Assembly: GCA_947456185.1 (NCBI GenBank)
Contig: CANGPW010000022.1
Span: 1 to 35,891 of the forward strand
Source of the DNA: Bacteroidota bacterium
GTDB taxonomy: Bacteria; Bacteroidota; Bacteroidia; UKL13-3
Direction of reading: 5' to 3'
Length of the DNA stretch: 35,891 nt
A program made the position numbers and the translations under genes. The notes below the pieces were generated by a model that saw only the letters and a program-made list of their open reading frames with translations, was not told the DNA's origin and ran no database searches. Positions 2,996 to 34,551 of this stretch are shown one piece after another (positions within the stretch are counted from its first letter, which is position 1; each line of letters begins with the position of its first letter).

Positions 2996-5197
2996 ATGAA
3001 GAGATTTTTATATTTAATCACAATCTTATTTTTTGTAAATAACTTAAAAGCAACTAATGGCGACACAACTAAAGTAAAATCTTTCGATAATTTTTCCATG
3101 AATAGATACGGAAATTTTGACACTTGGGTAAAATTTCCGGATGGAACCAAAAAATATCAGAAAATAATTATGAAATATACACTTGGGTGTACCAGTAATG
3201 GCCAGTGTGAATGGGATTATACCAATACTTTATTGGTAAGGGAAAATACTGGAAAGAAAGATTCTACTTTAAAAAATGCAAATAGTTACAGTATTATTGG
3301 TGTAAGCACAACACCAGATTCACTTTTTTATTTTAACGATACTACTTATAAATTTTTTTATAATAAAATTACCAAAACCATTGATAGCATTGCTAATAAA
3401 CAATTAGTAGTTTTGTTAAATAACAATGCTCAAAAACCAACTTTAGTTACCGATACTTTAAAAGTTTGGCCAACCTATTATACCTATAATTTTGATACTG
3501 CTGGAAATGTAATTGATTCTTTTTTAGTTAAAAATTCAGCTAATTATGTTGTGAAAATAGTAAGAAATTATTATCAAGTTTTTGACGTGATTGTAAATTA
3601 TGAATTAGGCCGAATGATAACACCTTATGCCAAGTTTTTTCCAAAAGATTTTAAATACACTTACGTTTTTGATGTGACTGATTTTGCAAGTAAATTAAAA
3701 GATTCTGTTCAAATTAGAATGGATTATTCAGGTTATTCATTTGGATTTACTTGTACAGTTAATTTTGAATTTATTGAAGGAACACCAGCAAGAGATGTAT
3801 TAAAAATAGAAGCGCTTTATTATGGTTATTTTCCATATGGTAATACCAATAATTCAATTGAAAATTATTTAGTTCCAAAAACTTTCACTAAAGATTTAAA
3901 TGCTAAAACGGTAAAATTACGTTTAACAGTTTCGGGTCATGGTGGTGAAAATAATGAGGGTTGCTCTGAGTTTTGCCCTAAAAATTTCTATTTAAAATTA
4001 AACAATTCTCAAATTGCAAAGCAATTGGTTTGGAAAGAAAATTGTGGTGAAAATGCCATAATTAATCAAGGAGGAACTTGGATATATGATAGGGCGAATT
4101 GGTGTCCGGGCGAACAAATAGCACCTTACGAATATGAATTAAACATGGTTGAAGGTGCAAATATTATAGACATGGATTTTGATACTTTTACAGCAAATGG
4201 TGGAGCTGGATACAGTGTAGCTGGTAATTTAATTTATTACAATGACTATAATTATTCAAATGAAGTAACAGTTGATGAGATAATTTATCCAAGTAATGAT
4301 TTTAGGTACCAACGTTTAAATCCAATTTGTGAAAATGCACAAGTTATTTTAAAAAATAATGGTAAAAATGAATTGAAAAATTGTGTGATTAAATATCAAT
4401 CGGGAAACAAAACCATTAATAGTTTTAATTGGCAAGGAAGGTTAGCTTTTGGCAAATCACAAAATGTAAACTTGCCTTATATTGAATGGGATTTAACAGA
4501 TAAAACATTTAAAGTTTGGGTGGAGAAACCTAATGGTCAAACAGATGAAAACAATTCAAACGATAGAAAAGAAACGTATAATGTTATTGTTCCAAAAACA
4601 TTTCCTCCACAAATAATCATTGAAACTACTACTAATAAATTTCCACTAGAAAGCAATTGGACTTTAAAAAATGCGATGGGAATTATTGTTGCACAAAAAA
4701 GTTTTACAAAACCAAGCTTACGTCATTTAGATACTTTAAATATTGGTTATGGTTGTTTTACTTTTCAATTAGATGACAGTGGAAAAGATGGTTTAGATTT
4801 TTGGGCCAGCAGAAGTAGCACTGGCAGTGGTTCTATTAGAATTACTGGTACTAATCCTTATAGAGTTGTTCAGCAAATAAATCCGGATTTTGGTAGTTTT
4901 TATAAAATTAGTTTTACAGGAATAGCAGGTTTAGGTAATGAAGAAATACTTGGCAATGAAATGTTAAAAGTATTCCCAAATCCAGCTATAAACCAATTAA
5001 ATATTCAGTTAGAAAATTCATTCAGTAATGCAATCAAAACTTACCAAGTTTATGATTTACAAGGCAAATTAGTTTATTCTAAAAACACCGCTGATTGTAT
5101 CTTAGATTTGGATGTTACAACATTTACCAAAGGAATCTACCTATTAATAATCAACTTGAATAACCAAACGTTAAAAAGTAAATTTGTAGTTGAATAG
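2996..5197 (+). CDS. PNGase F-like secreted glycoamidase-related protein with T9SS sorting domain
   Basis: The 733-residue protein has an N-terminal signal peptide (MKRFLYLITILFFVNNLKA). Its middle part matches, from memory, the two jelly-roll domains of Flavobacterium PNGase F: QCEWDY (Asp74) lines up with CDEWDR carrying catalytic Asp60; GCSEFC (Glu325) with GCAEWC carrying Glu206; and DRANWCPG with DRAGWCPG. PNGase F cleaves the amide bond between Asn and N-glycans. The third important residue of that enzyme, Glu118, has no obvious counterpart, so activity is an inference. Between the catalytic part and the tail lies a beta-rich segment (about residues 445-640). The last 80 or so residues, beginning LKVFPNPAINQ, are a T9SS type A sorting domain. 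The gene is about twice the length of PNGase F because of these additions. The stop codon lies inside a heptamer repeat tract. Confidence 0.82.
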   Translation: MKRFLYLITILFFVNNLKATNGDTTKVKSFDNFSMNRYGNFDTWVKFPDGTKKYQKIIMKYTLGCTSNGQCEWDYTNTLLVRENTGKKDSTLKNANSYSIIGVSTTPDSLFYFNDTTYKFFYNKITKTIDSIANKQLVVLLNNNAQKPTLVTDTLKVWPTYYTYNFDTAGNVIDSFLVKNSANYVVKIVRNYYQVFDVIVNYELGRMITPYAKFFPKDFKYTYVFDVTDFASKLKDSVQIRMDYSGYSFGFTCTVNFEFIEGTPARDVLKIEALYYGYFPYGNTNNSIENYLVPKTFTKDLNAKTVKLRLTVSGHGGENNEGCSEFCPKNFYLKLNNSQIAKQLVWKENCGENAIINQGGTWIYDRANWCPGEQIAPYEYELNMVEGANIIDMDFDTFTANGGAGYSVAGNLIYYNDYNYSNEVTVDEIIYPSNDFRYQRLNPICENAQVILKNNGKNELKNCVIKYQSGNKTINSFNWQGRLAFGKSQNVNLPYIEWDLTDKTFKVWVEKPNGQTDENNSNDRKETYNVIVPKTFPPQIIIETTTNKFPLESNWTLKNAMGIIVAQKSFTKPSLRHLDTLNIGYGCFTFQLDDSGKDGLDFWASRSSTGSGSIRITGTNPYRVVQQINPDFGSFYKISFTGIAGLGNEEILGNEMLKVFPNPAINQLNIQLENSFSNAIKTYQVYDLQGKLVYSKNTADCILDLDVTTFTKGIYLLIINLNNQTLKSKFVVE

Positions 5198-5235
5198 ACC
5201 ATAGACCATAGTTGATGGACGATAGTAAATTGACA
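5194..5235 (+). repeat. Degenerate heptamer tract, six units, starting at a stop codon
   Basis: Six consecutive 7-base units, most beginning ATAG or ATGG (for example ATAGACC, twice, and ATGGACG). The first unit contains the TAG stop of the PNGase F-like gene. Related units occur on the other strand at 11444-11481. Confidence 0.75.
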
Positions 5236-5262: not shown

Positions 5263-6216
5263 ATGAAATCAGAAACAATACTTATCATTGGCTCAAATGG
5301 GCAAATAGGAACTGAATTAGCCGAATCGCTTAGAGGTGTTTATGGTATAAATAATGTTGTTTGTAGTGATTTAAAATTACCTGCCATTGAAACTGGTCCG
5401 TTTGAAATAATTGATATTTTGGATAGAAACGGTGTATATGCAATTATAAAAAAATACAATATTTCGCAAGTATATTTATTGGCTGCAATGCTTAGTGCTA
5501 CTGCTGAAAAAAATCCAAAATTTGCGTGGGATTTAAACATGCAAGGCTTGTTTAATATATTAGATGCCGCCAAAGAAGGATTAATTAAAAAAGTATATTG
5601 GCCTAGCTCTATTGCCGTTTTTGGACCCTCAACTCCTCCTATTTTAACTCCTCAATATACTGTGATGGAGCCAAATACTATTTATGGAATTAGTAAGCAA
5701 GCAGGTGAACGTTTTTGCGAATATTATTTTCAAAAATACAATGTCGATGTACGTAGTATTCGTTACCCAGGTTTAATTGGACATAAGTCGGCACCAGGAG
5801 GTGGAACTACTGATTACGCGGTTCATATATACCATGAAGCAATAAAAAACGGAAAATATACTTGCTTTTTAAATGAGCAAACTACACTTCCAATGATGTA
5901 TATGCCTGATGCACTTCGTGCAACAATTAGCATCATGGAAGCACCCGCAGAAAACGTTAAAATTAGAAGCAGTTATAATATTGCAGGTATGAGTTTTAAT
6001 CCATTAGAAATAGCCGCATCTATTCAAAAACATATCCCAAATTTCACCATTGATTTTGCTCCTGACTTCAGACAAGCAATAGCCGATAGTTGGCCAAAAA
6101 GTATTGATGATATGGAAGCTCGCCAAGATTGGTTCTGGAAAAATGAGTTTGATTTACAAAAAATGACTGACGATATGATGTTAAATTTAACTAAACTTTA
6201 TAATCAATCAGTATAG
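5263..6216 (+). CDS. L-threonine 3-dehydrogenase, short-chain (GalE-like) type
   Basis: The 317-residue protein is a short-chain dehydrogenase of the epimerase type. It has the NAD-binding GSNGQIG motif at residues 10-16, the Ser of PSSIAVFGP and the YGISK catalytic Tyr-Lys pair. The stretches RYPGLIG, GGGTTDYAVHIY, LPMMYMPDA and PDFRQAIADSWP are hallmarks of the SDR-type threonine dehydrogenases of Bacteroidota and Cupriavidus. These oxidise L-threonine to 2-amino-3-ketobutyrate with NAD+; a ligase or spontaneous decarboxylation follows. They are unrelated to the zinc-dependent E. coli Tdh, so no symbol is given. The gene stands alone between a heptamer tract and a convergent gene; no ligase gene (kbl) is next to it. 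No clear terminator was seen in the 51-base spacer downstream. Confidence 0.9.
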   Translation: MKSETILIIGSNGQIGTELAESLRGVYGINNVVCSDLKLPAIETGPFEIIDILDRNGVYAIIKKYNISQVYLLAAMLSATAEKNPKFAWDLNMQGLFNILDAAKEGLIKKVYWPSSIAVFGPSTPPILTPQYTVMEPNTIYGISKQAGERFCEYYFQKYNVDVRSIRYPGLIGHKSAPGGGTTDYAVHIYHEAIKNGKYTCFLNEQTTLPMMYMPDALRATISIMEAPAENVKIRSSYNIAGMSFNPLEIAASIQKHIPNFTIDFAPDFRQAIADSWPKSIDDMEARQDWFWKNEFDLQKMTDDMMLNLTKLYNQSV

Positions 6217-11415: not shown

Positions 11416-11443
11416 TTAAATAAAATTATTTAATATTCTAAAA

Positions 11444-11481
11444 CGATGGTCTATCGTCTATCAACTAACAACCATTAACTA
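11444..11481 (-). repeat. Degenerate heptamer tract, five units, after the ettA stop
   Basis: Read on the minus strand, the ettA stop TAG (11479-11481) is followed by five 7-base units, three of them ending TAG (for example TTGTTAG and ACGATAG). The ATAGACC unit of the tract at 5194 recurs here across a unit boundary. Confidence 0.7.
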
Positions 11482-13152
11482 ATTAATATTCTTAAACCTA
11501 ACTCTATGTGGAGCAGAATCACCTAAACGTTGTTTTTTATTTTCTTCATATGCACTGTAATCACCTTCAAAGAAATACACTTGCGAGTTTCCCTCAAATG
11601 CTAATATATGCGTTGCAATGCGGTTAATAAACCACCTGTCATGGGAAATAACAACGGCACAACCTGCAAAGTTTTCAATGGCTTCTTCTAATGCACGCAA
11701 AGTATTTACGTCAATATCATTGGTTGGTTCATCTAATAAAAGTACGTTTCCACCTTCTTTTAAAGTAATGGCCAAATGCACACGATTTCGCTCTCCGCCT
11801 GAAAGTACACTTACTTTTTTACCTTGATCGCTTCCACCAAAATTAAATTTAGAAACATAAGCCCTAGCATTTAATTGTTGGGTTCCAACCATAATGGTAT
11901 CTGTTCCCCCACTAATTACTTCATAAACCGTTTTATCAGGTAGTAAATCTTTGTGACTTTGATCTACGTAAGCAGTTTTCACTGTTTCACCCACTCTAAA
12001 AGTTCCACTATCGGGTTGTTCTAAGCCCATCATCATTCTAAATAAGGTAGTTTTACCTACACCATTTGGACCAATAATTCCAACAATTCCACCTTTTGGT
12101 AAACTAAAGTTTAAGTTTTCGTATAATAATTTATTACCATACGATTTACTTACCCCTTGCGCTTCTATTACCACATCTCCCAAACGAGGGCCTGGTGGAA
12201 TAAATAATTCCAAGGTTTGTTCTTTTTCTTTTTGGTCTTCACCCATCATTCTGTCGTAAGCATTCAAACGCGCTTTTTGCTTTGTTTGTCTACCTTTTGC
12301 ACCTTGTCTAACCCAATCTAATTCACGTTCTAAAGCTTTCGCTCGTTTACCTTCCGCTTTTTCTTCGGCTTTTAATCGGTTGGCTTTTTGTTCTAACCAA
12401 CTACTGTAATTTCCTTTCCAAGGAATTCCTTCTCCACGATCCAATTCTAAAATCCAGCCAGCTACGTTATCTAAGAAATACCTATCGTGGGTAACAGCTA
12501 TAACAGTTCCAGGGAATGTTTTCAAATATTGTTCTAACCAATCTACACTTTCCGCATCTAAGTGATTGGTAGGCTCATCTAATAATAAAATATCTGGATT
12601 ACTTAATAATAAGCGGCATAAAGCTACACGTCTACGTTCACCACCCGATAAAACTTTTACCATTTGATCTGGCTCCGGGCATCGCAACGCATCCATTGCT
12701 TGTTCTAATTTATTGTCCAACTCCCATGCATCGTTTTGGTCTAACAATTCCATTACCACTGCTTGTCGGTCCAAAATTTTCATCATGTCATCACCATCCA
12801 GATTTGGATCAGCTAAACTATTATTTATGTTTTCAAACTCTTCTAATAAATCAGTAATATGTTTAACACCTTCTTTTACACATTCTACTACCGTTTTAGT
12901 TTCGTCTAAATTGGGTTCTTGTTCTAAAAAACCAATTTTGTAATCTTTGTCAAAAACTACTTCACCTTGAAAACTTTTATCAATTCCAGCAATTATTTTT
13001 AATAAACTAGATTTACCAGATCCATTTAAACCTAAAACACCAATTTTAGCACCATAATAAAAGGATAGGTAAATGTTTTTTAAAACTTGCTTTTGGGGAG
13101 GGAAAGTTTTACTTACCCCTGCCATTGAAAATATAATTTTATTGTCTGCCAT
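11479..13152 (-). CDS. ettA: Energy-dependent translational throttle protein EttA (ABC-F ATPase)
   Basis: The 557-residue protein has two ABC ATPase domains and no membrane segment. The first has GLNGSGKSS near residue 42, LSGGERRRVAL and LLLDEPTNHLD; the second has GPNGVGKTT, LSGGERNRV and LLLDEPTNDID. Between them lies the charged linker (about 240-325, rich in Lys/Arg/Glu) that reaches the P-site tRNA in this family. The arm inside domain 1 (CVKEGVKHITDLLEEFENINN...) is the EttA type. EttA binds the ribosomal E site and gates early elongation according to the ATP/ADP ratio. It is monocistronic, with a -7 element 24 bases upstream of the ATG. Confidence 0.95.
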   Translation of the reverse strand: MADNKIIFSMAGVSKTFPPQKQVLKNIYLSFYYGAKIGVLGLNGSGKSSLLKIIAGIDKSFQGEVVFDKDYKIGFLEQEPNLDETKTVVECVKEGVKHITDLLEEFENINNSLADPNLDGDDMMKILDRQAVVMELLDQNDAWELDNKLEQAMDALRCPEPDQMVKVLSGGERRRVALCRLLLSNPDILLLDEPTNHLDAESVDWLEQYLKTFPGTVIAVTHDRYFLDNVAGWILELDRGEGIPWKGNYSSWLEQKANRLKAEEKAEGKRAKALERELDWVRQGAKGRQTKQKARLNAYDRMMGEDQKEKEQTLELFIPPGPRLGDVVIEAQGVSKSYGNKLLYENLNFSLPKGGIVGIIGPNGVGKTTLFRMMMGLEQPDSGTFRVGETVKTAYVDQSHKDLLPDKTVYEVISGGTDTIMVGTQQLNARAYVSKFNFGGSDQGKKVSVLSGGERNRVHLAITLKEGGNVLLLDEPTNDIDVNTLRALEEAIENFAGCAVVISHDRWFINRIATHILAFEGNSQVYFFEGDYSAYEENKKQRLGDSAPHRVRFKNIN

Positions 13153-34474: not shown

Positions 34475-34551
34475 TTTTTAGTTGTTAGTTTTTAGTTAAT
34501 TGATACTTTCCCGATTTGTCGGGACTTCATACTTTATCATTCATACTTCTA
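34475..34551 (-). repeat. Eleven-unit heptamer tract filling the nuoH-nuoI spacer
   Basis: Read on the minus strand from the nuoH stop TAG, 77 bases divide into 7-base units up to two bases before the nuoI ATG. First come units such as ATGAATG and ATGAAGT, then a 14-base hairpin (CCCGA, TTTG-complement loop, TCGGG) that keeps the register, then CTAAAAA (twice) and CTAACAA. Confidence 0.75.

Follow-up and report, generated by a model that had tools for sequence, protein, structure and literature searches.

Many unrelated genes in a Bacteroidota genome carry heptamer repeat arrays that begin in register at their TAG stops

Heptamer tracts and gene ends in the window

The window is the whole stretch of DNA that we analysed, 35,891 nucleotides of one contig from a Bacteroidota bacterium (GenBank assembly GCA_947456185.1) whose genome, called the home genome below, is a 2.61-Mb draft of 127 contigs with 32% G+C. 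The T9SS genes and the composition mark its uncultured genus as Bacteroidota-like. The features that concern us are the following.

2996..5197, + strand: PNGase F-like T9SS cargo gene, with its TAG end within heptamer 1 of the array at 5194..5235
5194..5235, + strand: heptamer array of six units, unit 1 containing the TAG stop at 5195-5197
5263..6216, + strand: NAD-dependent epimerase/dehydratase gene (PF01370), downstream and co-directional
11443..11481, - strand: second array, TAGTTAA TGGTTGT TAGTTGA TAGACGA TAGACCA TCG, starting at the TAG stop 11481-11479
11479..13152, - strand: EttA-type ABC-F ATPase gene, with a native C-terminus
34478..34551, - strand: third tract, in which a degenerate AAGTATGAATGATAAAGTATGAAG repeat follows the TAG stop of nuoH (34551-34549) and TTAGTTG-like units come next

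The six heptamers of the array at 5194-5235 read ATAGACC, ATAGACC, ATAGTTG, ATGGACG, ATAGTAA and ATTGACA; units 1 to 5 keep ATRG in register and unit 6 is degenerate. A reading made from the letters alone had described six 7-base units here, the first holding the TAG stop of the PNGase F-like gene, and both the sequence and the open reading frame agree with it. The protein matches N-glycanase_C (PF09113) at residues 293-396 and a T9SS sorting domain, and because the Por_Secre_tail profile is complete (1-75/75) and reaches residue 732 of 733, the stop is native. We found that the array and its TAG are conserved in four sister genomes (G001, G002, G005 and G008), with the gene end kept in all of them and with synteny between this gene and the downstream epimerase gene also kept in sister genomes. 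Array length equals that of the home genome in G001 and G005, is 22 bp greater (three units plus one base) in G002 and is several units shorter in G008. An Rfam search of the window gave no match. T9SS cargo genes with an array right after the sorting-domain stop were also seen at L034:10003-11952 and L058:4685-7150, and three array-bearing T9SS genes stop where the sorting domain normally ends.

The same sequence-only reading had placed two further tracts, at 11479 and 34549, at TAG stops. The first of these stands: on the minus strand the second tract runs in register from the stop at 11481-11479 and reads TAGTTAATGGTTGTTAGTTGATAGACGATAGACCATCG. It is present in G001 and absent in G005 and G003, where the gene end and the TAG are unchanged. 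The ABC-F protein matches TIGR03719 to position 552 of 552 at residue 556 of 557, and its family orthologue in G019 terminates at the same residue. The nuoH tract, which reads TAGAAGTATGAATGATAAAGTATGAAG, is weaker, belongs to another family and has weak periodicity, and its clearer heptamers (TTAGTTG, 34478-34497) lie about 50 bp beyond the stop.

TAG preference, register and native gene ends

Over the whole home genome, the pattern ATRG(N3) repeated three times has 102 matches as compared to 4 for the reversed control, and a stricter pattern was found in 15 of the 40 genomes searched, every member of the genus among them. Strong arrays after stops number 18 at a lag of 7 bases and 0 to 3 at other lags. 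The arrays fall into several families, among them ATRGACN, TTGTCAG/TTGATAG, GCAATAG and CTRGCNN, and they occupy the gap from the native stop codon to the next constrained element.

To score stops, genes were called on the draft genomes with a simple purpose-made caller, which gave 628 genes in 737 kb of home-genome sequence (436 TAA, 133 TAG and 35 TGA stops). An unselected 400-kb sample was taken from G001, with further samples from G003 and G011 and a small unselected subset of the home genome. Among stops that a tract overlaps or abuts, 25 of 36 are TAG, as compared to 103 of 537 other stops (Fisher p = 5e-10), so the earlier suggestion that starts at TAG exceed chance is borne out; scored across the 737 kb, stops are strongly preferred, and the preference is for TAG specifically and holds in register. 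An in-register ATRG array runs from the stop in 19/128 (15%) of TAG genes and 2/411 of TAA genes in the home sample, where percentages are possibly inflated because array-bearing regions were deliberately included in 32 of the 41 home stretches. The G001 sample is unaffected by that choice and gave 9 of 57 TAG genes as compared to 0 of 232 TAA genes. Pooled over the home genome and G001, whose orthologous genes are not independent events, in-register arrays of at least two units follow 28/185 TAG stops and 2/643 TAA stops.

Where at least two ATRG units follow a stop, they are in register 0 at 15 of 19 TAG stops and at 2 of 9 other stops. The contrast between registers within genes is likewise unaffected by how the home stretches were chosen, and here we counted ATRG after TAG with no preselection of tracts. 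In the home genome it occurs at 60/512 in-register positions (+7, +14, +21 and +28) as compared to 33/3456 off register (p = 6e-32), and in G001 at 26/228 as compared to 6/1539 (p = 9e-19), an enrichment of 12 to 29 times the off-register rate. After TAA there is no in-register excess of ATRG in either the home genome or G001. The bias has the same direction in the small unselected subset of home sequence. The lock to TAG is clade-specific; it is weaker in G003 and absent in G011, another genus that carries the same repeats.

TTGTCAG and TTGATAG are the 7-mers found most often after TAG. Sense arrays of these units downstream of home genes begin 0, 7 or 14 nt past the stop in 11 of 11 cases, all at TAG, and in G001 (n = 8) the starts lie at 0 (five arrays), 4, 5 and 7, again all at TAG. 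In this genus, heptamer arrays begin in register at the TAG stops of many unrelated genes, well above chance.

The stops under the arrays are native and the coding side is untouched. When we compared each base with the base seven positions on in 28 locked genes, identity was 0.30 on the coding side, 0.81 at the three stop bases and 0.64 beyond them, with a sharp rise at the T of the stop codon. Of 17 locked genes with data, 12 share their terminal residue with the orthologue in one or both of two array-free genera that belong to the same family, and within the genus most array-free orthologues also share the gene end with the array-bearing genes. Random truncation of frames by inserted repeats is rejected as a general cause on the native ends and the sharp boundary.

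The ATAGACN repeat itself is widespread and occurs in Bacteroidota, Chloroflexota, Omnitrophota, Gammaproteobacteria and others. Three-unit ATAGACN arrays across unrelated phyla (L211-L290) are mainly intergenic, often 5-40 nt past a stop, and several frames enter the array; stops supplied by the repeat thus do occur in other taxa.

Array turnover among sister genomes

At other genes, as at 5194-5235, array differences between sister genomes are mostly whole heptamers (q22, q31). Sister species also carry different families at orthologous stops, for example ATRGACN in one and CTRGCNN in another at q03, q13, q23, q25 and q26, and because families differ at one orthologous stop, the units were not born from each gene's own sequence. 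In some sisters, an ATTCGAA-type repeat with a period near 7 replaces the ATRG array after the stop (L445-L472; N01, N05, N07).

At the locus N07, a 28-bp array, TTGTCAGTTGATAGTTGTCGGTTGATAG, follows TAG in G001 alone; the home genome, G002 and G005 have the TAG without the array. An insertion element or MITE would have fixed ends, a target-site duplication and a clean empty site; the N07 array is bordered by TAG on both sides, but its length and the downstream flanks vary. None of the sister loci compared showed a clean empty site with a precise junction, the flanks after the array at N07 differing as well. The array-free sister carries TAA at N01 (G001) and at N05 (G005), so an array may also have brought its own TAG. 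Stop codons in the outgroup do not inform the order in which TAG and array came, because ordinary TAG stops are poorly conserved in G003 (9/28). By hand count, array-free orthologues of locked genes in G003 and G006 have TAG in 3 of 10 cases as compared to 9 of 28 controls, which does not discriminate, and the 51 stop pairs that could be matched between the home genome and G001 are too few to separate TAG first from an array that brings TAG.

Origin of the arrays and relation to known repeats

The sequence-only reading had proposed that tracts grow from, or insert next to, stop codons. Insertion fits best, as at N07, and purely local duplication finds no support as the origin given the recurring units and the family swaps, while slippage of whole heptamers acts on arrays after they have arisen. 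The account that we prefer, and to which we give about an even chance, is that dispersed arrays were acquired in register on TAG stops and then slipped. An existing array would be copied into the 3' flank by ectopic template switching or conversion, in an event that may align on the TAG that the stop codon has in common with most units. Copies landing in coding sequence or promoters would be purged by selection, and gene ends would be where they do least harm. After acquisition, slippage would alter array length, and a specific function would not be required. In favour of this account are the in-register excess seen after TAG and not after TAA, the sharp boundary at the T of the stop, the start positions of the TTGTCAG/TTGATAG arrays, the native ends, the gain beside an existing TAG at N07, the whole-heptamer length changes and the family swaps at orthologous stops. 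Against it we count G011, which has the repeats without the lock, the TAA of array-free sisters at N01 and N05, the outgroup stops that do not discriminate and the sister loci that gave no clean empty site.

A bolder claim, which we consider improbable, is that this clade has a process directing heptamer arrays to TAG termination codons in particular, with stop codons as the landing site for the spread of the repeat; a candidate route would be copying that is coupled either to the termination of translation or to the 3' ends of RNA.

Birth in place is an unlikely alternative, in which slippage duplicates the seven bases that start with the stop codon and the array extends downstream. It is consistent with (TAGTTGA)3 running from the stop at L042:8750, with q05, where sisters have TAAGCAATAG or TAAGCAATGGGC and the home genome has TAGGCAATAGGCAATAG, and with array lengths that differ mostly by whole heptamers. 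However, a local origin predicts arbitrary units, and we found the same few units at unrelated genes (TTGTCAG and TTGATAG commonest) and families swapped at one stop.

We also doubt that the arrays are functional 3' elements, that is, RNA hairpins, terminators or three-frame stops held at gene ends by selection. Judged from its sequence, a heptamer containing TAG gives stops in all frames, and some arrays are inverted pairs, one of them ending in a T run. Yet the arrays fold no more strongly than ordinary 3' ends do (z –1.59 vs –1.66), an ordinary terminator-like hairpin lies after the N07 array in G001, and most genes have no array while orthologues lose or swap theirs. Since folding is the same as at ordinary 3' ends, a terminator function for the whole class of arrays is unlikely.

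A few arrays do have a stable hairpin and then a U run in the style of an intrinsic terminator. Inverted-pair heptamer arrays were seen at L056:3336-3371 and L047:11844-11930; the former is a long and nearly perfect palindrome, GACCATGGTCCATAG-A-CTATGGACCATGGTC, with T5 after it in a terminator-like placement. A CTTCGACAAGCTCAGGATGACA-like dispersed repeat and a CCCGATGCATCGGGAG palindrome recur beside or inside heptamer arrays (L031:9300-9357, L041:300-508, L039:6742-6793).

Still less probable is a neutral dead zone, where arrays land anywhere and survive between the stop and the next element, selection trimming the edge on the coding side. Three-unit arrays are indeed seldom found between divergent genes and almost never inside genes; however, this account does not predict the register (15/19 arrays at TAG stops are in register 0, against an expectation of about 1/7) or the missing in-register excess after TAA.

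By the argument that MacGregor made for TAACTGA repeats, arrays would land randomly close to the ends of genes and the frame would halt at whichever in-frame TAG of the array comes first. This agrees with frames in other taxa that read through one or two array units before they reach TAG (L213, L248, L256, L265, L275) and with some home tails that look repeat-encoded (for example ...VNRP at q03), but it is a very doubtful explanation here and as a general one is largely refuted by the conserved native ends, since most locked genes share their end residue with array-free genera, the T9SS and EttA profiles finish at the stop, and period 7 ceases at the stop codon without entering the gene.

We compared the arrays, which on our preferred account were acquired on TAG, with described heptamers, citing each source for the part of its text available to us. 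Rehm et al. (2015; PMC4692102) describe GGGAATC and GGGGA(T/C)T heptamers in Xanthomonas and Nostoc that are dispersed, intergenic and absent from most coding sequence; those of Xanthomonas are strongly biased towards sense-strand positions within 50 bp of stops, sometimes overlapping them, and related species have prominent repeats at other genes. The arrays here are also on the sense strand and within 50 bp of the stop; however, their units (ATRGACN, TTGTCAG and so on) are not G-rich and quadruplex-forming, and the available text on the Xanthomonas and Nostoc repeats reports neither a register with a particular stop codon nor a preference for one. MacGregor (2015; PMC4679880) describes TAACTGA direct repeats in Beggiatoaceae, Cyanobacteria and some Bacteroidetes, which are intergenic and supply stops in every frame; the overlap of 13 sets with the upstream gene's stop is explained there as a consequence of the built-in stop codons. 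The TTGTCAG/CAACTGA family here resembles that unit, but in the text seen most TAACTGA sets lie just upstream of start codons, whereas the CAACTGA- and CTATCAA-like units here lie at stops. According to that article, Mrazek et al. (2007) found heptamers to be the most abundant class of long repeats in many genomes and proposed polymerase slippage. The arrays here qualify as such long simple sequence repeats, with 7-base tandem units beyond chance and whole-unit changes in copy number between relatives; that survey is general and, as far as the citing text goes, does not mention the anchoring to stop codons seen here.

Heptamers that hug stops are therefore already known from Xanthomonas and Beggiatoaceae. 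The in-register lock to a native TAG appears to be undescribed: we found no description in the available text of PMC4692102 or PMC4679880, or elsewhere in the open-access literature, subscription journals lying mostly outside the search. Heptamer repeats are common in bacteria, yet their spread and position are unexplained. A lock that is exact in register, among sister genomes that differ in the presence, length and family of the array, makes the origin of such repeats testable through gains in close strains. It also carries a warning, in that the repeats help to shape both the TAG usage and the predicted C-terminal tails of such genomes.
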